Shown: in pieces, positions 21,054-54,824 of the stretch
Layout: every line of letters begins with the position of its first letter
Numbering within the stretch: position 1 is the first letter of the stretch
Origin: Flavobacterium petrolei
Lineage (GTDB): Bacteria > Bacteroidota > Bacteroidia > Flavobacteriales > Flavobacteriaceae
Reading direction: 5' to 3'
Assembly (NCBI RefSeq): GCF_003314435.2
Contig: NZ_QNVY02000002.1
Span: 124,001-188,000 of the forward strand
DNA length: 64,000 nt
The notes under the pieces: generated by a model
What the model was told of the DNA's origin: nothing
Databases searched by the model: none
Seen by the model: only the letters and a program-made list of their open reading frames with translations
Position numbers and translations under genes: made by a program

Positions 21054-22841
21054 TTAGTTAGCAGGAATATTAATAATCGTATTTACCATAGTTACCGAGG
21101 AAATTAAAGAAATAGCTCTTCCGTTCAATACTGTTTCTTGACCAACAAGCGTTGTGCTGTTAGCTGGAGAAGACAATGTAACTCCTTCTTCTGCAATGAT
21201 GTTTCCAACCATTACACCACCACCTGCGTAATTAATTACTGCTGTACTACCTACGTACCAATAAACATTTTTAGCCAAAGCTCCACCTATCAATTTAACA
21301 TTTCTTGAAGCTGATGGAGAACCAACTGTTAATGAAGACTCTGCTTGGAAATACCAAACTGCATTTGGATTACCTTGGGCATCTAATGTAAGATCACCAT
21401 TAGTGATTTTATAAGCACCACTAGCTGATTTATAAGTACCAGGTGCCAATGTTAAGGCTCCTAATTCACCAGATCCTTGATCACTTCCTCCTGGTTTTGA
21501 AGCCGGGGAAATACTATTATATAATGCTCTTGCTTCATTTAGTCCTTCTAATGCTTTTTGTGCTTTTGTAGCATTTCCTGGTGCAGGTGCAGCAGTAAAA
21601 ATTCCACCAAAAACAAGTCCGTTATTAAGCGGAGTAATATCATAAAATTCATTTGGAGAAGCTAATTTATCAGTAAATCCAGTTACTAATGTAGAAGCTG
21701 CAGTTGTTCCGATTCCTCCGTTATTAATTCTAGTGTTAAGACCTTGATTCGTAATTCCAGCGTTTCCACCAAATATTCCGAAGAATAAACCTGCAGTAGG
21801 AGCAGGGGAATTAGTAACCAATGTAGTAAAGCTCCAAACAAAGTCATTTGCCAAAGCATTACCTGCAACATTTTTTGCACCAGTTGAAATTGTAGCTGTA
21901 TAAAGTGTACCCTCTAATAAATCACTTGTCGGATTAAAAGTGGCTGTAGTTCCAGAATAACTTAAGGCTCCAGTAATAGTTGTTGTACCTTGTCTTAAGG
22001 TAAAAGTTGTTCCATTAATTGTTAACGGATCCATAATCATACTGAAGTTAGCAGTAATCGATTTATTAAGACTTATTCCCGTTGACATGTTAATTGGATC
22101 TGTAGATGATACAGTAGGGGCAATCAAAGAACCTGTAGTAAATTGCCATACATAATCAGCCATTAAAGCTGTATTGTCTAGATTTGTTACTGCTTTAGAA
22201 ATAGTAGCAGTATAAACAGTATTAGCTGCCAAAGGCGCAGATGGAATGAAAGTCGCTGTTGAACCACTATACGTTACAGTTCCGGAAACAGCTGTAGTTC
22301 CTTGTTTTAAAGTATAAGAAGTTGTTGAAATAGTTGAAGCCTTCATCGGCATATTGAAGGTAACACTTACTAATTTATTTAAAACCACATTATTAGTTTT
22401 ATCTTCAGGATCAGTAGTTGCAACCATTGGAGTAACTGTTAAACCAGTACTGAAAGTCCAAATAGTTTCTGTTTGTAAAGCATTACCTGTAAGATCTTTT
22501 ACTGTTCTTGCTATTCTTGCAGTATAAGTAGTGTTAGGAGCAAGTAAAGCTGATGGGGTAATCGTTGCTGTAGTACCAACGTAAGTAACTACGCCTGGTA
22601 TTTGTGAAGTACCGTTAAATAAAGTAAATGAAGACTCATTAATTGTTTCAGGATTCATTTCTTCATTAAAAGTGACCGAAATTAATTGATCAAGTGGGAT
22701 ATTTGTAGCTCCATTTGTTGGAGTAGTAATTGTTACAGCCGGACATACGCCATCGATTTCTTGGAAATCATCTTTGGCACAACCGGTAACTAGTGCAATA
22801 AAAAGTATTGCAAAGGTTAATGGTAATTTTTTTGTTTTCAT
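21054..22841 (-). CDS. Ice-binding (DUF3494) lipoprotein with three Ig-like domains
   Basis: A 595-residue lipoprotein. The signal MKTKKLPLTFAILFIALVTGC gives lipid-anchored Cys21. Three tandem bacterial Ig-like (Big_5) modules of about 100 residues follow, each with TNxxLxxxxxVTFNxxM, TxxxTY/FTL and LxxNTxYTATI. The last 245 residues are a DUF3494 domain (GIFGGNAGITNQGLNTRING-like start, SISPASKPGGSDQGSGELG, LTLAPGTYKSASGAYKI and NAVWYFQAESSLTVG). DUF3494 is the ice-binding beta-solenoid of antifreeze and ice-adhesion proteins. The layout fits a cell-surface ice-binding adhesin held away from the membrane by the Ig modules. Activity is inferred from family only. Confidence 0.9.
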   Translation of the reverse strand: MKTKKLPLTFAILFIALVTGCAKDDFQEIDGVCPAVTITTPTNGATNIPLDQLISVTFNEEMNPETINESSFTLFNGTSQIPGVVTYVGTTATITPSALLAPNTTYTARIARTVKDLTGNALQTETIWTFSTGLTVTPMVATTDPEDKTNNVVLNKLVSVTFNMPMKASTISTTSYTLKQGTTAVSGTVTYSGSTATFIPSAPLAANTVYTATISKAVTNLDNTALMADYVWQFTTGSLIAPTVSSTDPINMSTGISLNKSITANFSMIMDPLTINGTTFTLRQGTTTITGALSYSGTTATFNPTSDLLEGTLYTATISTGAKNVAGNALANDFVWSFTTLVTNSPAPTAGLFFGIFGGNAGITNQGLNTRINNGGIGTTAASTLVTGFTDKLASPNEFYDITPLNNGLVFGGIFTAAPAPGNATKAQKALEGLNEARALYNSISPASKPGGSDQGSGELGALTLAPGTYKSASGAYKITNGDLTLDAQGNPNAVWYFQAESSLTVGSPSASRNVKLIGGALAKNVYWYVGSTAVINYAGGGVMVGNIIAEEGVTLSSPANSTTLVGQETVLNGRAISLISSVTMVNTIINIPAN

Positions 22842-22878: not shown

Positions 22879-22943
22879 CAAAGGTTGTTTTATAAAAGTC
22901 AGTTAGTATTATACAATTAGGAAGATAAGTTGTAAGATTCACT
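22879..22943 (-). promoter_or_regulatory. Two-box stress promoter upstream of the ice-binding/OmpA operon
   Basis: In plus coordinates box 1 is GTTGTAAGATTCACT (22929-22943), box 2 begins ATTATACAA at 22908, and CAAAGG at 22879 gives a -7 TTTG on the minus strand. Boxes are 21 bp apart and box 2 is 29 bp from the -7. The gene starts at 22841. It is one of nine such promoters; the rest of the 22842-23230 gap shows nothing else. Confidence 0.8.
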
Positions 22944-23230
22944 GTTTATAAATACTTATAAGCTGTTATTTTGTTGTAAATAAAGTAGTTGTATTTTTAT
23001 TATTTGAATAAAAGTTTATTAGACCTATTGAAAAAATCAGAAAATAAGACAGGTAATTGTTCTAAAAATATCATTTAGAGCACTACTTTAGAAGGGAAGG
23101 TGAATTTGAAAAAAATGTAGAGAGCAATTAAAATTGAGTATCAATAGTCAAAACAAAAAGTTGAATACATTGAATTGTATTTTTAGAATAGAAAAAATAT
23201 TTAAGGTTTTAATTCTTAAATCTCTGTATT

Positions 23231-25205: not shown

Positions 25206-25829
25206 TTAGTTTAATCTCAATCCTACGTAAACGTTAAAAACACTGTTTTTTGCGTCAGATGAAGTAAAGCTATTGTCTTTTCCTATTTTAGTTAAACCGT
25301 AGTTGTAACGAACACCAAAATTTACTACATCTAAATCAATTCCTAGACCACCAGAGATACCAGCGTCAAATTTGTTGAAATCATCAGTGTTTAATTCACT
25401 TTCAGAAGAGCCGAAATTAGAATCATTTGATGTTTTTCCACTAACCATGTAGGCTGCGTATGGACCAACATGCACATTGAAATTATCAGTTAAATTTGCA
25501 ACTAATAAAATTGGTACTTCAATATAATTGATGTTGAATTTTGATGTTCCCTGAACTATTGCGTTATCGTATATTTGCTCAGAACCTTTTGTTGTGTAAT
25601 TAATTTCCGGTTGAATTGCAATACTATTTGTAATGGGGAACTTAGCGTATAAACCAGCATTGAAACCTGTAAGTATGTTACTGTCATCTACATTATCTGT
25701 ATAAAAATTAGAAAAGTTTAGTCCACCTTTAAAACCGTAAGAAGGGGTTTTTTCTTGCGCTTGTGCGCTCGTAAAGTTCATAAAACTTAATACCAATGAA
25801 GCAAAAATCAGTTTTTTTGAATTTTTCAT
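25206..25829 (-). CDS. Outer-membrane beta-barrel (porin family) protein
   Basis: A 207-residue protein with a Sec signal peptide (KLIFASLVLSFMNFTSAQAQ) and an eight-strand-type barrel of the OMP_b-brl_2 family. It begins YGFKGGLNFSNFY, has GFNAGLYAKFPI and IQPEINYTTKGS in the middle, and ends with the aromatic VYVGLRLN. Such proteins are common in Bacteroidota and lack a defined substrate. It is the first gene of the operon continuing into the two lmo0937 genes, ytxH, the holin-like gene and the gene at 23693, and it has the clearest two-box stress promoter. Confidence 0.87.
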   Translation of the reverse strand: MKNSKKLIFASLVLSFMNFTSAQAQEKTPSYGFKGGLNFSNFYTDNVDDSNILTGFNAGLYAKFPITNSIAIQPEINYTTKGSEQIYDNAIVQGTSKFNINYIEVPILLVANLTDNFNVHVGPYAAYMVSGKTSNDSNFGSSESELNTDDFNKFDAGISGGLGIDLDVVNFGVRYNYGLTKIGKDNSFTSSDAKNSVFNVYVGLRLN

Positions 25830-25861: not shown

Positions 25862-25926
25862 CAAATATCCGCATCTTACCTTAGCCTATTGTTACATTAC
25901 TTTTATTTAAAGTTACATTATTCACA
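25862..25926 (-). promoter_or_regulatory. Two-box stress promoter upstream of the porin-ytxH operon
   Basis: On plus, GTTACATTA occurs at 25891 and again at 25912, an exact 9-base direct repeat 21 bp apart. The second copy continues into TTCACA (25921-25926). CAAATATCC at 25862 supplies the -7 TTTG, 29 bp from box 2 and 33 bases from the start codon. Confidence 0.85.
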
Positions 25927-25987
25927 CTTTAGAGTACTTTAATAAATAGTTAAATTGTTAAAATATTGATAGTTAAATTATTAACAA

Positions 25988-26632: not shown

Positions 26633-26818
26633 CTATAAACCTTCAAATATTTTAAGTAATTCTTTTCTGCTTATCCCAAGTTTTGCTTGGTATTTTTTTA
26701 GCATTTCGTCTTTTTTTTCCTCTGAAAAAAGTGATTTATTATTGGTTAAAGCTGCAAACTTTTCTTTTAACCTTTTTTTTTGTTCTTCCCAGTTTCCCCC
26801 TCGCTCTATCGAATCCAT
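26633..26818 (-). CDS. CsbD-like stress protein
   Basis: A 61-residue soluble helical protein. NWEEQKKRLKEKFAALTNN resembles the CsbD core NW...KxKLKxKFxxLT of the general-stress family, and KYQAKLGISRKELLKI matches the final helix. CsbD in Bacillus belongs to the sigma-B stress regulon; its molecular role is unknown. The gene has its own two-box stress promoter at 26858-26922, which supports a real expressed gene. Confidence 0.82.
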   Translation of the reverse strand: MDSIERGGNWEEQKKRLKEKFAALTNNKSLFSEEKKDEMLKKYQAKLGISRKELLKIFEGL

Positions 26819-26857: not shown

Positions 26858-26922
26858 CAAAGTTCGGCCGTTTACAAAGGGAAGCAGTTATATAACTTTA
26901 TAGATTAGTTTCATTATTCACT
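26858..26922 (-). promoter_or_regulatory. Two-box stress promoter upstream of the CsbD-like gene
   Basis: On plus, box 2 GTTATATAACTT starts at 26887 and box 1 GTTTCATTATTCACT spans 26908-26922, 21 bp apart. CAAAGTTC at 26858 supplies the -7 TTTG at the invariant 29-bp distance. The start codon is at 26818. Confidence 0.82.
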
Positions 26923-27026
26923 GATTCAATAGATTACAATACAGATTAGTAGAAAATGTAAAGAAATAAAAGAATGTTTTTTTTTACTAAGAATTCAGAT
27001 GCGAATTATGTAGTTGCATTTTATGT

Positions 27027-30734: not shown

Positions 30735-31175
30735 CTAAAATCTATTTGTTGTCAGAATTAGTTGCATTCCAGGATACTTTACATCTGCATTATCTTCTGC
30801 GGAAATAAATATTTTTGAAGGCTCAAATGACGTAACCGTTTCAAAGGTGGCTTTAAGTTTTGAGGACATAAATCCGGTGTCGCTTTTTATTTGTCCAATA
30901 TTTTTCACAACAGAATTTTCGGTTTCCATCCAAACAACGTAAACGTTTTTTGAAGGTTGCAACCGGTTAACTTCGGCTAAATTTGATATTTTTATTCCAA
31001 TCGAATAATTTTTGTTACTGTCTTTTTTTACACTCACTTTTCCCTCTGCGGCGGGAACTACTGAGGAGTTTTGAAAAGCTATATTCTTCCCGCATGATGC
31101 AAAAGACAACAACATAATTAGTGCTAAAAATCCTGTAAATAATTTTTTAATATTTGAATTTAATCGAATTGTCAT
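30735..31175 (-). CDS. Lipoprotein of unknown function
   Basis: A 146-residue protein with signal FTGFLALIMLLSFASCGKN, giving a lipid-anchored Cys after SFAS. The mature part is beta-rich (KNYSIGIKISNLAEV, NVYVVWMETEN and SKLKATFETVTSFEPSKIFI). The pattern NVYVVWMET...VKNIG is seen in small exported Bacteroidota proteins and in the C-terminal part of anti-sigma-K-like proteins, but I assign no function. It is monocistronic under the two-box promoter at 31204-31268. Confidence 0.75.
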   Translation of the reverse strand: MTIRLNSNIKKLFTGFLALIMLLSFASCGKNIAFQNSSVVPAAEGKVSVKKDSNKNYSIGIKISNLAEVNRLQPSKNVYVVWMETENSVVKNIGQIKSDTGFMSSKLKATFETVTSFEPSKIFISAEDNADVKYPGMQLILTTNRF

Positions 31176-31203: not shown

Positions 31204-31268
31204 CAAATTTCAATAGTATAGAGTTAAGATATGTTATATAAATATTATAAAAATTTACATTATTCACA
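31204..31268 (-). promoter_or_regulatory. Two-box stress promoter upstream of the 31175 lipoprotein gene
   Basis: On plus, box 2 GTTATATAAATA starts at 31233 and box 1 TTTACATTATTCACA spans 31254-31268, 21 bp apart. CAAATTTC at 31204 supplies the -7 TTTG, 29 bp from box 2 and 29 bases from the start codon at 31175. Confidence 0.8.
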
Positions 31269-31294
31269 CGTAAATAATCACAGTCTAAAATAAT

Positions 31295-31567: not shown

Positions 31568-31951
31568 TTATGCTTCGGAAAAGTATTCTTTTACAAAATT
31601 ATGTTGCTGGCTTGCGGTCATCTTGTCCGTGTTTTTGATTTCAAATTTAATCTTCAGAAAACGCTCGTCTTCACTAAGAAGATCAAAAAGTTCTACTTTG
31701 GCATTGGTAGGACCAAAGAGGATTACGCGTTTGTAGTTTTTAATTGTTTCTCCTATTTTTTTGTAATAGTCGTACAATTGTTTTTTCTCTTTTTCAAGCA
31801 TCAAATTTTCATTTTTTGCCAAATGTTTTTTCTTCTCCTTGAGTGAAAACTTTGATTCAATTGTTTCAATCTCAAAATGTTTTGATGTGAATTCCATTAA
31901 ATGGGCAAAGGAATGATCCATCCAAATCCCTAATTTTTTTGATGCCGTCAT
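31568..31951 (-). CDS. Soluble protein of unknown function (release-factor/host-attachment-like fold suspected)
   Basis: A 127-residue cytoplasmic protein. It starts KLGIWMDHSFAHLMEF, has a Lys-rich middle helix (SLKEKKKHLAKNE then EKKQLYDYYKKIGETIKNYK) and ends with RVILFGPTNAKVELFDLLSE followed by IKNTDKMTASQQHNFVKEYF. The last part recalls the C-terminal region of eRF1/pelota-type and host-attachment proteins (LFGPxxAKxxLxxxL, then TDKMT). That resemblance is a pattern match from memory, not an established assignment. It heads a two-gene unit under a two-box stress promoter. Confidence 0.7.
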   Translation of the reverse strand: MTASKKLGIWMDHSFAHLMEFTSKHFEIETIESKFSLKEKKKHLAKNENLMLEKEKKQLYDYYKKIGETIKNYKRVILFGPTNAKVELFDLLSEDERFLKIKFEIKNTDKMTASQQHNFVKEYFSEA

Positions 31952-32019: not shown

Positions 32020-32084
32020 TAAAGTTCAGTTATTTGTTCTTGATTTTTATTATATAAATTTAGATAAAACTTATATAATTCACA
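32020..32084 (-). promoter_or_regulatory. Two-box stress promoter upstream of the 31951 gene
   Basis: On plus, box 2 ATTATATAAATT starts at 32049 and box 1 CTTATATAATTCACA spans 32070-32084, 21 bp apart. TAAAGTTC at 32020 gives a degenerate -7 (TTTA) at 29 bp. The rest of the 31952-32261 gap shows no gene. Confidence 0.72.
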
Positions 32085-32261
32085 TGTAAATTCTTTATGA
32101 AAAGGTAATCAAATTTAAAATCACGCTCAATAATTTGCATCTCCTTTCAATGGTAAAGGAGTAGTTGGGCAATGAGTTGTTTTGTATTTTTTCTTTGAAT
32201 AGTCATCAGAAACTAGATTTTCTGGATCGTTTTAATAAGTGCTCATCTCACTGTAAAGCAT

Positions 32262-32325: not shown

Positions 32326-33708
32326 TTATTTTTCGTAGGTCATTTTCAACTCTACTCTTCTATTTTTTGCACGTCCAATAGCCGTTGCATTTGTAGCAAT
32401 CGGTTTGCTTTCGCCATAACCTACTGCTGTAACTCTTGATCCTGAAACTCCTTTTTCCATTAAATAATTTTTAACAGATTCAGTACGTTTTTGAGATAAT
32501 TCTAAGTTCAAAGCATCGCTACCATTGCTGTCAGCATGTCCTTCAATAACTAAGTTAGATGCATCATATTTATTAATGATAGTTACTAATTCATCTAATT
32601 GCGCTAATGAACCTATTTTTAATTTAGCACTATTGTTCTCAAAGAATATTTTACTTCCTAAGTATGTAATTCTTTCAACATCTTGTTTTGTAATTTCAGG
32701 ACAACCTTTGTTTTCCATAGTTCCTTTAACGGTAGGACAACGGTCATCAATATCAGCCACACCATCTCCATCAGAATCTGGACAACCATTTAAACTCATT
32801 GGACCAGCAACATCAGGACAACGGTCTAAATCATTAGTAATTCCATCTTTGTCATTATCCATAGCACACCCAGTAGCATCTACTTTAGTTCCTGGTTTAG
32901 TATCTGGACATTTGTCATTAATATCAGCTACACCATCATTGTCTGAATCAGGACAACCGTTCAATAGAGCAGAACCTGCAGTATCTGGACAAGCGTCTAA
33001 GTAATCAGCAACACCATCTTTGTCTCTGTCTAATGGACAACCATTTTCATCAACAACTACACCAGCCGGAGTTTCAGGACAGGTATCATTACGATCTGAA
33101 ACACCATCATTATCAGCATCTTTTTTATCACCTAAATTGAAAGTTAAACCAGCCATGTGAGATAAATAAGCGTCTTTTTTGCCATTATCAACACCGTCTC
33201 TTCTGTCTTTATTTGAAAAACTAAAAGTTTCTTGTAGGTTTAATGTAATTACATCATTCAATTTGAAATTTATTCCACCACCCGCTGTAGGTAAGGCGTA
33301 ATCAATTCTATCTTGATCAAAGTTTAGGTCTTTGTCAAATAACATAGCACCAACTCCTGCAAATGCATAAGGTCTTACAATAGATTCAGGACCTGTCATG
33401 TTAAATCTTAAATTTAACGCAACTGAGTTGAAATCGCTTTTAAAACTTCCTGAAGGGCTGTTGTTATAACCAATTGTTCCTTTTGAAGCCAAAAAATTTA
33501 AATCGAAATAACGACCTAAATATCTAGAAACAGAGATACCACCAAAACCGTAGAATGCTTTATCAGTTTTATAAAAATTATTTCCTAAATCACCTTGGTA
33601 TTGTGTTACACCTCCGTGAAGACCAATATTCCATTTTTTGTCTGCGGTTTGCGCTTTTGAGATAAATGTAAATGCTAAGCATGTACACAGTAATAGGATT
33701 TTTTTCAT
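32326..33708 (-). CDS. OmpA family outer-membrane protein with thrombospondin type 3 repeats
   Basis: A 460-residue protein: Sec signal MKKILLLCTCLAFTFISKAQ, an eight-strand barrel (about 25-200), five or so calcium-binding thrombospondin type 3 repeats rich in DxDxDGVxDxxDxCP (about 202-340), and a C-terminal OmpA domain with VIEGHADSNGSDALNLELSQ and GRAKNRRVELKM. It is a typical major OmpA of Flavobacteria, linking outer membrane and peptidoglycan. The ATG at 33708 is chosen because an in-frame ATG at 33798 lies inside the promoter boxes upstream of the -7 element. It is monocistronic with a strong terminator. Confidence 0.92.
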   Translation of the reverse strand: MKKILLLCTCLAFTFISKAQTADKKWNIGLHGGVTQYQGDLGNNFYKTDKAFYGFGGISVSRYLGRYFDLNFLASKGTIGYNNSPSGSFKSDFNSVALNLRFNMTGPESIVRPYAFAGVGAMLFDKDLNFDQDRIDYALPTAGGGINFKLNDVITLNLQETFSFSNKDRRDGVDNGKKDAYLSHMAGLTFNLGDKKDADNDGVSDRNDTCPETPAGVVVDENGCPLDRDKDGVADYLDACPDTAGSALLNGCPDSDNDGVADINDKCPDTKPGTKVDATGCAMDNDKDGITNDLDRCPDVAGPMSLNGCPDSDGDGVADIDDRCPTVKGTMENKGCPEITKQDVERITYLGSKIFFENNSAKLKIGSLAQLDELVTIINKYDASNLVIEGHADSNGSDALNLELSQKRTESVKNYLMEKGVSGSRVTAVGYGESKPIATNATAIGRAKNRRVELKMTYEK

Positions 33709-33734
33709 CTTTATTTTTATTATATTGTTTGATG

Positions 33735-33799
33735 CAAAGGTTGACAACATTGGGCTAACGATTGTTATATAACTATTGTAATAAGTTGTATCATTCACA
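33735..33799 (-). promoter_or_regulatory. Two-box stress promoter upstream of the TSP3-OmpA gene
   Basis: On plus, box 2 GTTATATAACTA starts at 33764 and box 1 GTTGTATCATTCACA spans 33785-33799. CAAAGGTT at 33735 supplies the -7 (AACCTTTG), identical to the one of the ice-binding operon, at 29 bp. The start codon is 27 bases on. Confidence 0.85.
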
Positions 33800-34023
33800 C
33801 ATTGGGAAGAATTTTTCCTTTTTTATTCTAAATGTATACCATCAATTAACCATTAGTTAATCGGCAAAAAAAAGAACTATTTAAAAAAATCATTCTTTTG
33901 TTAACTGCTCATGGAGAAAGTTTTGAAAGAAGTTTTTTTTAATAGTTCTAATTAATTTTTTAAAAAGTTTACATTTTTTGTTTAAAACAAAAAAGGCTGC
34001 AGATTCTCTTTATTGACTAAATA

Positions 34024-34170: not shown

Positions 34171-34644
34171 TTATTCTAAATATCTTCTCAATGTCCAAGC
34201 CATTGTTTCGTGAGCTAACATCAATCCAGTTAGGAAATCAGCTGTTCCTGCATCTTTATTTTCGTCAGCACTTGCGTCAACATCTTTTCTCAACTGAACG
34301 ATTAGTGTTTCATGATCTTCTACTAATTCTTGAAGCATTTCTTTTTGACCTGGATACTGATTTGGAGATTCCTTGATAATTGTTAAATCTGAAAACTCTT
34401 TCATTGTTCCAATCGTTTTTCCACCTAATTTACTAATACGTTCTGCCGTTTCGTCAATTGAAACTTCCAGTTGTGTATATTGTCCTTCAAACAATTTATG
34501 TAATTCCATAAAACTTTGTCCAGATACATTCCAATGAAATTTTCTTAATTTAATATATAGCGTCATTTCATTTGCTAAAATTGAAGAAAGGATTGAAATA
34601 CTGTTTTTTAAATGCGCTTCTGTAATTCCGATTTTAATTTTCAT
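34171..34644 (-). CDS. dps: Dps family DNA-protecting ferritin
   Basis: A 157-residue Dps protein. It forms a 12-mer that oxidises ferrous iron with peroxide and stores it, protecting DNA in stress and starvation. The inter-subunit ferroxidase residues have the exact family spacing: His37 (KFHWNVSG), His49, Asp64 and Glu68 (SIDETAERI). The N-terminal DNA-binding tail is short (MKIKIGITEAHLKNSI). A two-box stress promoter lies at 34752-34816, giving a leader of about 100 bases. Confidence 0.93.
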   Translation of the reverse strand: MKIKIGITEAHLKNSISILSSILANEMTLYIKLRKFHWNVSGQSFMELHKLFEGQYTQLEVSIDETAERISKLGGKTIGTMKEFSDLTIIKESPNQYPGQKEMLQELVEDHETLIVQLRKDVDASADENKDAGTADFLTGLMLAHETMAWTLRRYLE

Positions 34645-34751: not shown

Positions 34752-34816
34752 CAAAGATCACTTTATTGCTTAAAAAAAGTATTATAAGATTACAAGAATT
34801 AGTTACATCTTTCACA
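34752..34816 (-). promoter_or_regulatory. Two-box stress promoter upstream of dps
   Basis: On plus, box 2 ATTATAAGATTA starts at 34781 and box 1 GTTACATCTTTCACA spans 34802-34816, 21 bp apart. CAAAGATC at 34752 supplies the -7 TTTG at 29 bp. The start codon is 108 bases on, a longer leader than most others. The remainder of the gap to 34975 holds nothing I trust. Confidence 0.8.
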
Positions 34817-34975
34817 CTTTTAAATTAATAACTATTTATTAATCAATAATTTAAATAATAAATAGGTTCGATGTTGTAATATGTGTGGATTTAAAACTCT
34901 ATTTTCTAATGGAACTTTTTCCTTTTCTATAAATAATTTCAAAGGTGATTGTGTCAGTTCAAAATTAAATATCAA

Positions 34976-39015: not shown

Positions 39016-39384
39016 TTATTTTTTAGAAGGATTAATTGTAATTTCTTGTTTTTTTTGTGGGGTAACCAAACCGTACATTGCTTCGTATTGTAACATGATG
39101 TCTTTTTCGCCAATGGAATTGAAGAATTCTTCCAAGCGTTTGATGTGGTCTATCGTAAATTGAAGATGTACTTTGAGTGCATCTGCTAGTTCATCAGTGA
39201 CAGCATTTTTAATCAATACGGGAATCGAGATAATCAGTGCTTTTTCTGTAAAGTAAATTTCTTTTAGTTCCTCTACAAAAATATTTCGACAACCTTCACT
39301 AGTTTTAGAAGATATTTCATTTGAATTTCCTTTCCCTTTTTCTAGCATGACTTTTTTATCAGTTTTGGTTACGGTACTTTTCAT
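39016..39384 (-). CDS. Half-length DUF892 (YciE-type ferritin-like) protein
   Basis: A 122-residue protein. After a charged N-terminus (30 residues), NIFVEELKEIYFTEKALIIS and LKVHLQFTIDHIKRLEEFFN match the first two helices of the DUF892/YciE family. The family normally runs to about 165 residues with four helices, but here it stops after YEAMYGLV and a short basic tail (PSKK). The second half of the bundle, with half of any metal ligands, is missing, and the next gene begins 3 bases on. It may act as a dimer or have lost ferroxidase function. It heads the operon with the aldehyde dehydrogenase. Confidence 0.8.
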   Translation of the reverse strand: MKSTVTKTDKKVMLEKGKGNSNEISSKTSEGCRNIFVEELKEIYFTEKALIISIPVLIKNAVTDELADALKVHLQFTIDHIKRLEEFFNSIGEKDIMLQYEAMYGLVTPQKKQEITINPSKK

Positions 39385-39423: not shown

Positions 39424-39488
39424 TAAAGTTGGGGTTATAACAGTTCTAAAGTATTACACAATTAATGTTATGTATTACATCTTTCACA
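39424..39488 (-). promoter_or_regulatory. Two-box stress promoter upstream of the DUF892-aldehyde dehydrogenase operon
   Basis: On plus, box 2 ATTACACAATTA starts at 39453 and box 1 ATTACATCTTTCACA spans 39474-39488, 21 bp apart. TAAAGTT at 39424 is a degenerate -7 (TTTA) at the invariant 29 bp. The start codon is at 39384. Confidence 0.75.
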
Positions 39489-39834
39489 TATTATCAAATT
39501 AATCTTTTGAAATCAATCAGGAAATAATTTTTATAATTCCGTTCCTTATTAAAGTACAAAAGCCATTTAGATTTTGATAAAAAGAATGAAGGATTGCAGC
39601 GATACAACTCACTATAGGTTGAAGGTCAGCTGTTATTAAAGGATTTTTATTATTTTGATAAATCACCTGATTAATATCAAATGAAATTAGAGTCTTTGCG
39701 GAAAAGACTTTGGAAATGAACAGAAATATTTGTAGGCTATAAAATAAAAAGCTGTAAGTTAAAAAAATGGGAGCGGTTTATTTGGTGTTTTAAGTTCGGT
39801 AATGCAAAAAAAAGCAATTACGATGGAAATAAAA
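39489..39834. other. Gap without a gene; contains a T7-like sequence
   Basis: No protein-like frame longer than about 20 codons is seen. CGATACAACTCACTATAGGT (39600-39619, plus) matches the T7 RNA polymerase promoter at 16 of 20 positions, including the core ACTCACTATAGG. No phage polymerase gene is present, so it is most likely chance. Confidence 0.4.
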
Positions 39835-39946: not shown

Positions 39947-40141
39947 TTATGATTCGTCTTTAGTTGTTCGAACTAAGCTAATTCCTGAAACAAAGAATAA
40001 TATACCTAAAACTCCGTAAATGATTAGCGCTTTAATATCAGTTGTTTCGCCTGAAGTACTTGCAAATATAACTGCAGTGTAAATAAGTCCACCTATTCCA
40101 AGAGCAGTAAGTAATGCTCCAAATATTCTTTTTAGATTCAT
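39947..40141 (-). CDS. Small two-helix membrane protein
   Basis: A 64-residue protein with two membrane helices (IFGALLTALGIGGLIYTAVI and ALIIYGVLGILFFVSGISLV) and a charged C-terminus RTTKDES. I recognise no named family, although it resembles other small stress-linked membrane proteins in this island. Expression is supported by the two-box promoter at 40258-40322 and a terminator at 39835-39866. Its predicted leader is unusually long (about 110 bases) and begins with a hairpin. Confidence 0.75.
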   Translation of the reverse strand: MNLKRIFGALLTALGIGGLIYTAVIFASTSGETTDIKALIIYGVLGILFFVSGISLVRTTKDES

Positions 40142-40257: not shown

Positions 40258-40322
40258 CAAATGTATTTTTATGGAACATTCAAAGTGTTACACAATTGTT
40301 AATAAAAGTTATATCATTCACA
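40258..40322 (-). promoter_or_regulatory. Two-box stress promoter upstream of the 40141 gene
   Basis: On plus, box 2 GTTACACAATTG starts at 40287 and box 1 GTTATATCATTCACA spans 40308-40322, 21 bp apart. CAAATGTA at 40258 gives a perfect TAnnTTTG (TACATTTG) at 29 bp, which identifies the TTTG of the other eight as -7 elements. Confidence 0.85.
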
Positions 40323-40419
40323 GTTTAAAGTCAATCTGATAAATTTTCACACTAAAATATTATTCTTAGATCATTGATCATGAGTATAAAGAAGTAGTTT
40401 TTTTGCTGTAATGGAGTTG

Positions 40420-44946: not shown

Positions 44947-47400
44947 TCAGCTTCTTAAATTGTTAAGTTCCTCCTGTAATTCGTTACAGGCTTGAAGACA
45001 AATTTCTTCAATTTGCTGCACTAATTCATGTATTTCTTTAGATTTTTCTTCTGCTGTGGCTAATTCCTGAATTTTCTTTGCCATATTTTCATAATTTGCA
45101 CTGATTCCCACGATGGAAAAGGACGGTATCATTTTATGTGCCGAAGCAGCTAATAAAGACCAGTTTTGGTCGGCAAGACTTTGTTTCATAGTTTGCACTA
45201 ATGGCGGAACTTGTCCTAAATACAGTGCTATCATTTCCATCATTAATTTTGGATTTGATTTTGTTCTCTGGTTTAAATACACGAGATTAATACATCTTGT
45301 TTTTTCCCCGGTCACCATGCTATCTTCTAATTTATCACTATGTTTTTGAGGAAACGTATCAAGATGTGACTTATTTAAAATACTAACTATTTTATTATAC
45401 AATTGTTTTTCGTCTACCGGTTTTGCAAGGTAATCGTCCATTCCTACTGCTTTGCATTTTGCTAAATCGACTGTTGTAACATCAGCAGTCAATGCGATTA
45501 TTGGAATAGTTGATTTCATTGTTTTACGAATGTATTCTGTAGCTTCAAATCCGTTCATTTCTGGCATTTGCAAGTCCATCAATACAATTTCGTATTCTTT
45601 TTCTTTTAATTTTTCGATAGCGATTTTACCGTTTTCGGCTATGTCACGCTCAAATCCAAAATCATCCAGTAATGTTTTCATTAATAATTGATTCAACGGA
45701 ATATCTTCAACTACTAATACTTTTATATTTTTTAATTCAGATTCTATCTTTGTCACTTCGTTTTCCAGTTGAGCTTTGGCATTCGTTTTTTGGAAAGGCA
45801 AGGTGAAACTAAATGTAGAGCCTTCGTGCATAATACTTTGTACACGAATTGTTCCTCCTTGTGGTTCTACTAATTGTTTTACAATAGCAAGGCCAAGTCC
45901 AGTTCCTCCATACAATTTTGAAGTTCCGCTTGTTGCCTGTTGAAAATTTTCAAATATCGTATCTATTTTTTCTTCTGAAATTCCGGTCCCAGTATCAGTT
46001 ACAGCAAATTTGAGGATCACTTTTTCAAGATCTTCATGCAGTAAATCTACACGTACCGTAATTTTTCCTTTGGATGTAAATTTAACAGCATTGCTAACTA
46101 AATTTAAAACAATTTGATGCAAACGAATTGGATCTCCCACCAAAACATCAGGAATTTTATTGTCGTATTCTTTTACTAATATTAAGTTTTTTTCCTGAAT
46201 TTTATTTTCAAATAAATGAAGCATAGCCAAAATAGAAGATTCCATTTTGAAAGGCGTTTTCTCAAACGTCATCTTTCCGGCGTCTACTTTTGCCAAATCT
46301 AAAATGTCATTAATCAGAACGATTAAGGCATCACCACTTATTTTGATTGCGCTTAAATATTCTTTTTGTTTAGAGGTCAAATCTGTCCGGAATAATACTT
46401 TTGTAAATCCAATAATTGCATTCATCGGTGTCCGGATTTCGTGACTCATATTCGACAAGAATTGCTGTTTTGCTTTCATAGCGTTTTCAGCAATAGCTTT
46501 AGCATTTTCAGCATTTATTTTTGCTTCTTCTGCAATTTCCGTGGCTAATTCTGCAAATATTTTAGCTTCAATTAATTCAGTTTCAATTCTTTTTTGATTG
46601 GTTACATCTCTGGCAACAATAGCAGCTCCTAGAACATTCTCCTTATCATCTTTGTATACGGCACCATTGAATAATACATGAATCAGTTTGCCGTTTTTAT
46701 GACGAAGAACTAAGGGTAAATCAGCAATAAATCCTTTTTCAAATACTTTTCTATAAACTTCTAGAGCTTTTTCTGGTTCTGTAGAATATTCAAAAAAATC
46801 GGTTCCTATTAATTCCTGTCTTGTTTTACCAGTTACTTCAACCGCTGCATAGTTCATATCTGTGATTTTTCCTTGCGGTGAAATTGCAAATAAGGGGTCA
46901 TGGCTCGCTTCGATAAGACTAAGAGCATAATCAGAACGTAATTTTTGGGCGGTAAGATCGGTATTCAGTTTTTTTAGTTGTTGTGCCTGAAGTAGTAATT
47001 CTTGATTTTTGGTATGCAAATCTACAAAAACAGCCACTTTTGCTCTCAATATCTCTGGAGAAAGCGGTTTAATCATGTAATCAACGGCTCCCGCCTGATA
47101 TCCTTTGAAAATTTGGACCGAATTATCCATGCTAGCCGTCAAAAAAATAATGGGAACATGCTTAAGTTTGTCGATTTGTCGAATTAATTCTACGGTTTCA
47201 AATCCATCCATCATCGGCATTTGCACATCTATTAAGATGAGTGCAAAATCTTGTTGGTGAAGCAGAATTTTTAAAGCTTCGTTACCGGAATTTGCTTTGA
47301 CACATGAATAATTTTCGTCAGAAAGTATAACTTCTAAGGCGAATAAGTTTTCGGGTAAGTCATCGACCAATAAAATTTTAACAGGGCTATTTATTTTCAT
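44947..47400 (-). CDS. Hybrid histidine kinase: REC-PAS-HisKA-HATPase-REC-HPt
   Basis: An 817-residue cytoplasmic phosphorelay protein. An N-terminal receiver (Asp58 in LILIDVQMPMMDGFE) is followed by PAS (about 160-275), HisKA (His about 321, MSHEIRTPMNAIIGFT), HATPase (GGTGLGLAIVKQLVEP), a second receiver (IVLMDLQMPEMNGFE) and an HPt domain (about 715-815; ASAHKMIPSFSIVG). All four phosphorelay stations lie on one chain, so it can relay to a separate regulator through the HPt. The central 500 residues are highly similar to the end of the CheB-CheR fusion, and a decayed third copy lies at 52991-53552. Confidence 0.94.
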   Translation of the reverse strand: MKINSPVKILLVDDLPENLFALEVILSDENYSCVKANSGNEALKILLHQQDFALILIDVQMPMMDGFETVELIRQIDKLKHVPIIFLTASMDNSVQIFKGYQAGAVDYMIKPLSPEILRAKVAVFVDLHTKNQELLLQAQQLKKLNTDLTAQKLRSDYALSLIEASHDPLFAISPQGKITDMNYAAVEVTGKTRQELIGTDFFEYSTEPEKALEVYRKVFEKGFIADLPLVLRHKNGKLIHVLFNGAVYKDDKENVLGAAIVARDVTNQKRIETELIEAKIFAELATEIAEEAKINAENAKAIAENAMKAKQQFLSNMSHEIRTPMNAIIGFTKVLFRTDLTSKQKEYLSAIKISGDALIVLINDILDLAKVDAGKMTFEKTPFKMESSILAMLHLFENKIQEKNLILVKEYDNKIPDVLVGDPIRLHQIVLNLVSNAVKFTSKGKITVRVDLLHEDLEKVILKFAVTDTGTGISEEKIDTIFENFQQATSGTSKLYGGTGLGLAIVKQLVEPQGGTIRVQSIMHEGSTFSFTLPFQKTNAKAQLENEVTKIESELKNIKVLVVEDIPLNQLLMKTLLDDFGFERDIAENGKIAIEKLKEKEYEIVLMDLQMPEMNGFEATEYIRKTMKSTIPIIALTADVTTVDLAKCKAVGMDDYLAKPVDEKQLYNKIVSILNKSHLDTFPQKHSDKLEDSMVTGEKTRCINLVYLNQRTKSNPKLMMEMIALYLGQVPPLVQTMKQSLADQNWSLLAASAHKMIPSFSIVGISANYENMAKKIQELATAEEKSKEIHELVQQIEEICLQACNELQEELNNLRS

Positions 47401-52555: not shown

Positions 52556-52990
52556 TTACATACGATCCATGTACCAATTTAATTCTTTCTCCATTTTTTG
52601 ATATTTAAAAATAGCGGTAATTATTTTTTGCAGTCGAACGAAAGCAGTCTCGCTTTTTACTACATAATCAAACGCTTTGTGATGCATGCAATTTACAGCT
52701 ACTTCAATTTTATCTTGAGAGGATAACATTATAACCGGAATTTCAGGATTGAAAGCCTTTACTTGGTCCAAAGTCTCGAGACCATTCATAGCGTTTTCTA
52801 CAATACCATCAAGTTGATAATCTAATATTACTACATCAGGATTATTAGACAAATTTGCTATGCAGAGTTCTCCAGTTGGATAGGTTTCGACTATGAAATC
52901 AGCATTTTCTAAAAAATCGATTTCGAGGGATTTCAAAAACAATGCATCATCGTCTACAAGAAATATTTTTACTTTATTGTTGGTGTTCAT
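52556..52990 (-). CDS. Single-domain response regulator
   Basis: A 144-residue receiver protein. The acidic pair is in FLVDDDALFL, the phospho-acceptor Asp in DVVILDYQLD, the Ser/Thr switch in VIMLSSQDK and the Lys in YVVKSETAF. A short charged helical tail follows (KYQKMEKELNWYMDRM) with no DNA-binding domain. It could act as a phosphate shuttle or sink for the neighbouring hybrid kinases, especially those with an HPt domain. The ATG abuts the stop codon of the pseudogene upstream (TAAATG), so the intact ancestor was co-transcribed and probably translationally coupled. Confidence 0.9.
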   Translation of the reverse strand: MNTNNKVKIFLVDDDALFLKSLEIDFLENADFIVETYPTGELCIANLSNNPDVVILDYQLDGIVENAMNGLETLDQVKAFNPEIPVIMLSSQDKIEVAVNCMHHKAFDYVVKSETAFVRLQKIITAIFKYQKMEKELNWYMDRM

Positions 52991-53552
52991 TTATATGGCA
53001 TTTTTAATTATGTTTAATTCTTCCTGAAGTTCCTCGCATGCTAGTAAAAAATTTTTTTTCAATTCCAAAACCAGATTTGCTACTTCTTTAGTTTTGTCTT
53101 CTGTAAAATTAATGCACTTGTCTTAGTTCTTTGGTTTAAATTGACCAAGTCAATATGTTGTATTTTTTGGATACAGTTTCTTCTTTATCTTTAACTTTCC
53201 TATTAAATTGCAAATGTTGGATTTATTAAAAAGGTGTAATTTTATTATGAAATATTGTTAGTTTCCCATTTTTGCGATGAAGTGTAAGAGGAGCATCCGT
53301 GACGCATCCATTTACAACAGCGTATTGATATACTGCTTTTACTTTTTGAGGGTTGATTAAATTATTAAAGTAATCACAACCAATTAAACTGTTACGATTA
53401 ATTCCCGTAATGTTTATTGTTTCATTAACGTCCGAAATTTTTACTGCAGGATTTAATGAGATTGTAGGGTCTAGAATGACTTCAATCAAGTTTCTGGTAT
53501 ATTTTGATACGTAACTATATATGATTTCTATTTTTATTAAATTTTTTATCAA
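52991..53552 (-). pseudogene. Remnant of a third PAS-kinase-REC-HPt hybrid kinase
   Basis: Three pieces align in order with the kinase at 44947-47400 and its paralogue. From 53552 a PAS domain (VNETINITGINRNSLIGCDY, then LTLHRKNGKLT) ends at a stop near 53226. After a large deletion of the kinase and receiver, IDLVNLNQRTK (near 53150, compare INLVYLNQRTK) marks the start of the HPt. After another deletion and frame change comes EDKTKEVANLVLELKK then LLACEELQEELN (compare EEKSKEIHELVQQIEE, LQACNELQEELN), with a stop at 52991. The catalytic core is gone. The first 108 codons could still be translated as a PAS-like peptide. Confidence 0.82.
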
Positions 53553-53573: not shown

Positions 53574-54140
53574 CTACTTACCAATTTCTTCAATTGGGTT
53601 GCGTCTTTTGTCTTTTAGTTGTTTAAAATGAGAAGGGGATAGGCCTGTAACTTTTTTAAATTGGCTGGATAAATGAGCCACACTACTATAATTCATTTTC
53701 CATGCAATTTCCGTAATATTCAATTCGCCATAAATTATCAACTCCTTGATGCGCTCCGTTTTATGGGAAATTATAAATTGTTCAATCGTGGTTCCTTGCA
53801 CCTCCGAAAATAAGTTAGACAAATAGGTGTAATCATGATTGAGTTGTTCGCTCAAATAATCCGAAAAATTAATTTTAATGGGTTCAACCGTATGATGCAC
53901 CATTTGTATAATTACATTTTTAATTTTTTCGATTAACATGGATTTTTTATCATCCATCAATTCTAGTCCAGAATCTAAAAGTGCCGCTTTTAAGAGTTGT
54001 CTTTGTTCCATAGAAATATTTTCCATGATTTCTACTTCGCCAAGATCAACAACCATAAAGTGAAGTTTTAGCTTTTTCAATTCCTCTTTCACTGCCATTT
54101 TGCAGCGATTGCTTACCATGTATTTTATATATAGTTTCAA
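53574..54140 (-). CDS. AraC-family regulator with HMA-like N-terminal domain
   Basis: A 188-residue DNA-binding protein. Residues 1-70 (MKLYIKYMVSNRCKM, then LKLHFMVVDLGEVEI) resemble the small ferredoxin-like domain fused to AraC helix-turn-helix domains in Bacteroidota. There the first loop is usually VCxRC; here the first Cys is Ser and only Cys13 remains. Residues about 92-180 are two AraC HTHs (DYTYLSNLFSEVQGTTIEQF, INSAEIAWKM-like LNITEIAWKMNYSSVAHLS, FKKVTGLSPSHFKQLK). It could respond to a metal or thiol signal. It is a candidate activator of the nine two-box promoters, because AraC proteins bind direct repeats about 21 bp apart. Confidence 0.88.
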   Translation of the reverse strand: MKLYIKYMVSNRCKMAVKEELKKLKLHFMVVDLGEVEIMENISMEQRQLLKAALLDSGLELMDDKKSMLIEKIKNVIIQMVHHTVEPIKINFSDYLSEQLNHDYTYLSNLFSEVQGTTIEQFIISHKTERIKELIIYGELNITEIAWKMNYSSVAHLSSQFKKVTGLSPSHFKQLKDKRRNPIEEIGK

Positions 54141-54171: not shown

Positions 54172-54461
54172 CTTTTTCAATTTAAAGATACATCATAAAA
54201 TTATAGTTTTAAGTTATTAAATAATCTGTTGTCAAGTCTATTTTGCTTTTTTAGACTGATACTTCAAATTAAATTATATTTAAAACACGACTATTTGTCT
54301 GATTTTATTAATTTTACGTTGTGTTTCTTTATGTAAAAATAATCCTTTAGAAAAAAATCACTTTGTTTTTATATGTTTTTTTCTATTTAATTTTTCTAAT
54401 TCTTTTCTCGTAGTTTCATTTAACAAAGAAACTAATATCATTTTTAATTATAAAGTGTATT

Positions 54462-54824
54462 TTAATTCTCGTATCCGTTTTTTATCGTTGTTGAAATCAT
54501 TTTGAACTGGACATTCGCATTAAAAGAATGGGTGCAATGTGCCGGTATAATTATTCCATCTCCCAATTTGAGATTGTGTTTTATTTCATCAATAAATACT
54601 TCAGCTGTGCCGTCTATTATCTGAACATAGGAATCAAAAGGGGAAGTACGTTCTGCTAATTCTTCGCCTGCATCAAATGAAGAAGCAGTTATGTTACCAG
54701 TTGTTTTTTTTATAATAGTTCTACTTAAAACGGCATTGGGAACATATTGAATGATTTCTACTATAATGTGGGATTCTGATTTTTTTAACTCGCTATTGTC
54801 GAATGAATTGATCTTTAAGGACAT
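54462..54824 (-). CDS. Cupin domain protein
   Basis: A 120-residue single-domain cupin. The first motif region is SSFDAGEELAERTSPFDSYV with VQIIDGTAEVFIDEIKHNLK, and the second is LGDGIIIPAHCTHSFNANVQ. The first motif lacks the usual HxH pair (the expected histidines are replaced around RTSPFD), while His in HCTHSF is kept, so metal binding may be altered. It is monocistronic; the substrate is unknown. The 258 bases upstream hold no recognised element. Confidence 0.85.
   Translation of the reverse strand: MSLKINSFDNSELKKSESHIIVEIIQYVPNAVLSRTIIKKTTGNITASSFDAGEELAERTSPFDSYVQIIDGTAEVFIDEIKHNLKLGDGIIIPAHCTHSFNANVQFKMISTTIKNGYEN

Follow-up and report, generated by a model that had tools for sequence, protein, structure and literature searches.

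An AraC-type protein with a predicted copper-chaperone-like N-terminal domain is a candidate activator of nine stress-type promoters in Flavobacterium petrolei

The window, that is the whole 64,000-nucleotide stretch of Flavobacterium petrolei DNA that was analysed, carries a gene for an AraC-type regulator and nine promoters with a common site (Table 1). As the initial annotation held, the gene is real and of AraC type, since its product matches the Pfam families HTH_18 (E=4.2e-16, residues 96-174) and HTH_AraC (E=1.2e-8), and its TTG start is supported because most ortholog matches start at the same residue. The protein had also been described as the sole sequence-specific DNA-binding regulator of the window. 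Indeed, no second one was found among the 36 window proteins scanned with Pfam, the only further HTH-like domain being a CvfB_WH beside S1 domains, and the remaining ORFs (large kinases, membrane and enzyme genes) were surveyed by eye. Directly upstream of the AraC-type gene, a small cupin-like protein is encoded (54462-54824), whose likeness to AraC_binding lies below the Pfam cut-offs and which is present in 6 of the 80 related loci described below.

Table 1. Features of the AraC-type module and of the nine promoter sites (window coordinates; amino acid residues for the protein domains)
Feature	Position	Strand	Remark
AraC-type regulator gene	53574..54140	-	188 aa, TTG start
Protein domains			predicted: 1-61 ferredoxin-like (copper-chaperone-like), 64-82 linker helix, 92-179 AraC HTH domain
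Single-domain response regulator (receiver only)	52556..52990	-	partner of the AraC gene, conserved downstream of it in other genomes
Histidine kinase remnant, PAS piece	53226..53552	-	53256-53474 matches residues 1-74, longer stretch 257-354, of the 933-aa L050 kinase
Kinase remnant, C-terminal pieces	52994..53169	-	match L050 kinase 813-840 (E=0.001) and 899-933 (E=8.5e-7)
Decayed self-promoter site	54191..54226	-	best upstream position, -13.6 bits, 50 bp before start; orthologs intact there
Site	22907..22944	-	upstream of Big_5/ice-binding-domain gene 21054-22841
Site, 0 mismatches	25890..25927	-	upstream of OMP beta-barrel gene 25206-25829
Site, 2 mismatches	26886..26923	-	upstream of 61-aa CsbD-like ORF 26633-26818 (likeness by eye; no Pfam match)
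Site	31232..31269	-	upstream of 146-aa gene 30735-31175 (no Pfam match)
Site, TTTA for TTTG	32048..32085	-	upstream of 127-aa gene 31568-31951 (no Pfam match)
Site	33763..33800	-	upstream of OmpA gene
Site	34780..34817	-	upstream of Dps/ferritin-like gene 34171-34644
Site, TTTA for TTTG	39452..39489	-	upstream of DUF892 gene 39016-39384
Site	40286..40323	-	upstream of 64-aa membrane-protein-like ORF 39947-40141

The domain boundaries come from an AlphaFold2 model computed with 36 sequences (pLDDT 89). Using Foldseek, the HTH part of this predicted model matched AraT, MarA, Rob and the DNA-binding domain of AraC. Shorter matches of ~ 65-70 columns were obtained with Atx1, GolB and HAH1 (probability 0.94-1.00, TM-score by target 0.57-0.68, E-values of 0.06-0.2, hence weak by E-value) and were assigned to residues 1-61 by their length and order of elements, the Foldseek output giving no matched range. 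The N-terminal domain is thus predicted to adopt a copper-chaperone fold, the beta-alpha-beta-beta-alpha-beta arrangement being present in the model with a final strand of just two residues. No Pfam family was found for residues 1-95, HMA (PF00403) giving no match at E<=0.1, and the likeness of this region to HMA domains is drawn from the structure prediction and from the paralogs that bear CxxC. Neither a cupin effector domain as in AraC (Pfam on residues 1-95, and a predicted ferredoxin-like fold) nor a LytTR domain (Pfam) was found in the protein. The metal-binding motif CxxC is not kept and reads SNRC; given that one cysteine is left, metal binding in the manner of Atx1 appears unlikely.

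The neighbourhood of the gene was compared with that of its relatives, of which at least 540 were found by one search and the 80 best ones from named records, with 79-96% identity, were kept. These 80 loci belong to Flavobacterium, Lutibacter, Paludibacter, Labilibaculum, Prolixibacteraceae and others, including one Ignavibacteria MAG. The usual order is AraC, histidine kinase and response regulator on one strand, with a PAS histidine kinase in 67/80 loci and a receiver-only regulator in 65/80. No DNA-binding domain was found in the partner regulator of the window by Pfam, which places receiver and HTH on separate proteins with no receiver-HTH fusion. The kinase is full-length in relatives, whereas in the window it has lost its middle (52994-53552); as the L050 kinase has a repeated PAS sequence, the PAS piece of the remnant fits either of two stretches of it. 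Since only a remnant is found here, another kinase probably serves the module in this genome, for instance the hybrid kinase 44947-47400, which by eye has PAS and C-terminal sequence in common with the lost one. In eight loci (L066, L076, L081, L086, L099, L106, L115 and L141) AraC-type genes were observed as tandem pairs in the same orientation, the second copy being 63-69% identical to the window protein.

The nine promoters, proposed from a reading of the sequence, proved to be real. A position weight matrix built from six seed sites chosen by eye found all nine, all on the minus strand and between 21 and 41 kb, and in its first round, the only one used, the weakest of them scored 20.0 bits compared to 11.4 for the next match in the window and 14.4 for the best of five shuffles. 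Later rounds, forced to ten members, brought up 46822-46859 as a tenth site, which was rejected as a false match in coding sequence. The consensus GTGAATnATRYAACTT is followed 21 bp further by a second half-site, ARTTRTRTAACA, and at a fixed spacing by a sigma-A -7 box; the two direct half-sites with a 21-bp period that had been described are both present. At position 61 from the site start the -7 box reads TTTG in seven sites and TTTA in two. In F. psychrophilum, TAnnTTTG is the -7 box of sigma-A promoters according to PMC9723704, the main text of which holds no occurrence of "AraC". No title on the regulator or the motif was found in the literature searched, a body that mostly excludes subscription journals. 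One site lies inside the OmpA ORF when this is read as 32326-33798 with a GTG at 33798; the ORF is therefore likely overlong, and its start is probably the ATG at 33708.

Within the genome of F. petrolei itself (3.74 Mb, 22 contigs), 17 matches with up to two mismatches were observed compared to 1 for the reversed pattern. All 8 matches with at most one mismatch fall inside the window cluster, and the ninth window site is among the nine matches with two mismatches. Given that the best sites are confined to one cluster, the motif is devoted to it, which points to a local regulator. By the content of its genes, the regulon would serve in stress or in protection of the envelope. Among the families that bear the motif in the 80 loci are the AraC family itself (42/89 copies), ice-binding-domain proteins (19/29) and CsbD (9/16), as assigned by Pfam on representatives, as well as small membrane, YtxH-like and outer-membrane proteins, grouped by eye; a family resembling ORF 39947-40141, also by eye, carries it in 7/19 copies.

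When the pattern derived from the window was applied with up to two mismatches to the flanks of these best 80 of at least 540 relatives (1.31 Mb), it gave 191 matches against 1 for the reversed control, with a few places counted on both strands (L074, L083) and all loci centred on the gene by design. In the 191 sites the -7 box keeps its fixed distance, with T at position 61 in 97% and at position 62 in 98%, though it was no part of the search pattern. Furthermore, in 41/80 loci the 250 bp preceding the AraC gene contain a site, and in 37 of these 41 it stands 46-61 bp before the gene. Because none of the nine window sites lies at the AraC gene, these self-promoter sites are an independent finding. 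At the corresponding position the window has the decayed site of Table 1. Decay is also observed in closely related species (F. sandaracinum, F. xanthum, F. sinopsychrotolerans and F. glaciei), whereas the site can still be made out in F. yafengii, F. urumqiense, F. gawalongense and others. Nine of the 80 loci display no site, the flanks ending at 10 kb while the nearest site of the window is 13 kb from the gene.

The joint occurrence of gene and motif, which the initial annotation had suggested checking across genomes, was examined in 150 Flavobacterium genomes and 296 genomes of the phylum as well as in the 80 loci, and was borne out in each. With a homolog cut-off of at least 60% identity (46 genomes with, 104 without) and at most one mismatch, two or more sites were found in 32/46 genomes with the homolog compared to 5/104 without it (Fisher p=1.2e-16, a value that is too small, as are the other p-values, since genomes of common ancestry overstate independence). 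Four or more sites were found in 15/46 compared to 0/104, and at least one in 38/46 compared to 31/104. The direction of the association across Flavobacterium is thus clear. The partner response regulator tracks the motif too, 30 of the 31 genomes that have it showing at least one site. Where the AraC gene is present without this partner, two or more sites occur in 6/15 genomes against 5/104 (p=5e-4), and at least one in 8/15 against 31/104, which is not significant (p=0.08). In six genomes of one or two contigs (G010, G036, G045, G058, G076 and G139), 20 of 24 sites are no more than 25 kb from the ortholog, the homolog of G058 and G076 being 61-62% identical to the window protein. In the phylum set, the exact pattern was found in 11/296 genomes, 7 of which have a homolog of at least 65% identity (G000, G029, G176, G215, G273, G289 and G398).

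Genomes with the motif and without this gene had been named as what would speak against the proposal, and such genomes were found in a few cases. Four phylum genomes carry the exact pattern with no homolog of at least 65%: G060 and G390, in which a 44-46% paralog adjoins the site, G425, with one strong site and a homolog of 45% only, and G165, a MAG of 94% completeness. In the latter, 6 sites were found, four of which share a contig of 26 kb; the best homolog it encodes, 37% identical, is located near an ATPase with HMA domains; two sister genomes likewise have homologs of 37-39% only. Either the assembly of G165 may lack a part that holds the AraC gene, or the motif may be read there by another protein. 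On one contig of this genome (C17, loci L210-L211), stress-type genes form a cluster in which variants of the motif occur, GGGATAAATGTAAC being one of them, and the assembly contains no close AraC homolog. In G001, which has 2 sites and no homolog at 1e-10, the partner response regulator beside the site is truncated, and so the module looks to be decaying. Five Flavobacterium genomes show two or more sites and lack a homolog at the 60% cut-off; of these, G015 and G124 count against the proposal. Several of the sites in the 31/104 genomes with at least one match lie, in those looked at, beside a 44-46% paralog, as do the single sites of G008 and G102 (44%). That single matches in large Flavobacterium genomes (GTGAATTATGMAACG...) are coding sequence was ruled out by translation of L021, where the site is located between Dps and CsbD genes (Pfam) with a 44% paralog alongside; such paralogs may therefore use the motif too. 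Conversely, 8/46 genomes with the homolog have no site at one mismatch, G110, G014, G095 and G032, with homologs of at least 70%, being included.

A tree of 66 homologs, midpoint-rooted for drawing and hence giving no direction of the cysteine change, is split by one branch (support 99/98) into a copper-side set of 17 rows, in every one of which the N-terminal domain retains CxxC, and a set of 49. The latter includes the window protein and has SxxC in most rows, NxxC in a branch found next to CsbD and Dps genes in the loci inspected, and CxxC in four rows (L177, L178, L156 and the long-branched L173 of the own genome). Directly downstream of the CxxC paralog, a P-type ATPase carrying HMA and HMBD domains is encoded in each of the three loci checked with Pfam, L172 and L174 of the own genome and L175 of G075. 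These CxxC paralogs may form a family of copper regulators in Bacteroidota.

A sister site, GTAAATCTTACAA-n-CC-n-AATTnnACAA or a close variant, was found behind the AraC-type gene in 16/20 regions with paralogs that share 49-56% identity with the window protein; 17 of the 20 regions were taken without translating the paralog itself, and two of the 20 (L172 and L234) have nearly identical sequences. Here, too, one half-site follows the other after 21 bp, and TTTG stands at position 61 in 12 regions and at position 60 in 4. The pattern, applied with up to 5 mismatches in 21 positions (13 of 2000 shuffles reached that), was written after viewing L234, L228 and L219 of the same regions and is in that respect partly circular; the TTTG spacing formed no part of it. 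No sister site was found in L226, L229, L230 and L174, and before the ATPase it is present in L172 and L175, not in L174. In genomes of a single family (f23; L150, L151 and L153), the variants GTGATTTATGTAA or GTGACATATGTAA adjoin homologs whose first recognition helix is altered (DIFSEVKG, NTFSEVKG, NIFSEVKG), a possible co-variation of site and specificity.

The AraC-type protein had been put forward as candidate activator of the nine promoters, and it is supported in this role by the co-occurrence, by the self-promoter sites of relatives and by the geometry found with the paralogs, as the same geometry beside two kinds of paralogs would be difficult to account for if the AraC-type protein were not the binder. 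We estimate at about 88% the probability that it acts as their direct transcriptional activator, both binding and activation being inferred from sequence. In such a mechanism, the AraC-type DNA-binding domains would contact the two direct half-sites on one face of the DNA, 21 bp corresponding to two helical turns. The second half-site ends ~ 24 bp before the TTTG of the -7 box, and the pair would thereby cover the -33 region, from where the bound protein would recruit sigma-A RNA polymerase in a class II activation. Binding could be tandem or dimeric, and control would be exerted by the partner kinase and the single-domain response regulator, perhaps via the copper-chaperone-like domain.

That the protein represses the promoters whose sites it binds, or requires the response regulator as co-activator, would fit the conserved kinase and regulator beside its gene, but it is improbable: sites placed directly before the -7 box and over the -33 region are typical of activators at class II promoters, and sites are also present in genomes with no ortholog of the response regulator. 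Even less credit is given to another AraC-type paralog of the subfamily, with a common binding mode, as the main activator in F. petrolei. By eye the recognition helices of the paralogs are very similar, a site of the same geometry lies behind paralogs, and G165 has the motif with no close ortholog. However, two of the three paralogs examined in the own genome (L172, L174) adjoin the metal P-type ATPases, the best stress-type score around L172-L174 is 14.4 bits, at an ATPase promoter, and in relatives the stress sites cluster around the ortholog of the window gene. LytTR-type response regulators, which bind 9-bp direct repeats ~ 21 bp apart and had been named as a non-exclusive alternative, are the least probable binders and not favoured, since the own genome does have 7 LytTR matches but the domain is present in 150/150 Flavobacterium genomes, with or without the motif, and cannot explain its presence or absence, while Pfam showed no such domain in the 36 window proteins scanned, none of the recurrent gene families around the 80 loci is LytTR-like by eye, and the site variant elsewhere lies behind AraC paralogs.

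Taking the AraC-type protein as the activator, we lean slightly towards a wider reading in which an AraC subfamily with a copper-chaperone-like N-terminus would control stress regulons across Bacteroidota via one promoter architecture, the stress and copper branches having a common ancestor and a metal sensor having become a general-stress activator, or the reverse. The stress branch would be the one with a metal-ligand cysteine missing and a kinase and receiver alongside, and the copper branch the one with CxxC kept, beside metal P-type ATPases. To our knowledge, Bacteroidota have neither RpoS nor SigB and their stress regulators are poorly known. With a named gene, a site at base level and a promoter geometry predicted together, the regulon as a whole, with its Dps, OmpA, CsbD-like, ice-binding-domain and outer-membrane genes, can be put to the test, and the paralogs with the sister site offer a natural experiment on changes of recognition.

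Compared with known systems, the protein resembles LytTR regulators such as AgrA and ComE in the direct repeats, spaced by ~ 21 bp, that it would bind, but those have another DNA-binding domain and do not track the motif. Response regulators of the YesN/AraT type rank among the solved structures nearest in sequence to the DNA-binding domain, whereas receiver and DNA-binding domain are on separate proteins in the window. With copper chaperones and HMA domains (Atx1, GolB, HAH1) it has in common the fold predicted for residues 1-61, although it lacks a Pfam HMA match and its CxxC is reduced to SNRC. The likeness to the AraC/XylS family (AraC at araI1-I2, MarA/SoxS/Rob) lies in the C-terminal double-HTH domain and, for AraC at araI1-I2, in the two direct half-sites, 21 bp apart by the promoter, that it would bind. 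It differs from that family in having, instead of the cupin sugar-binding domain, an N-terminus with a predicted copper-chaperone fold, and in being partnered, in most loci, with a histidine kinase and a receiver-only regulator.
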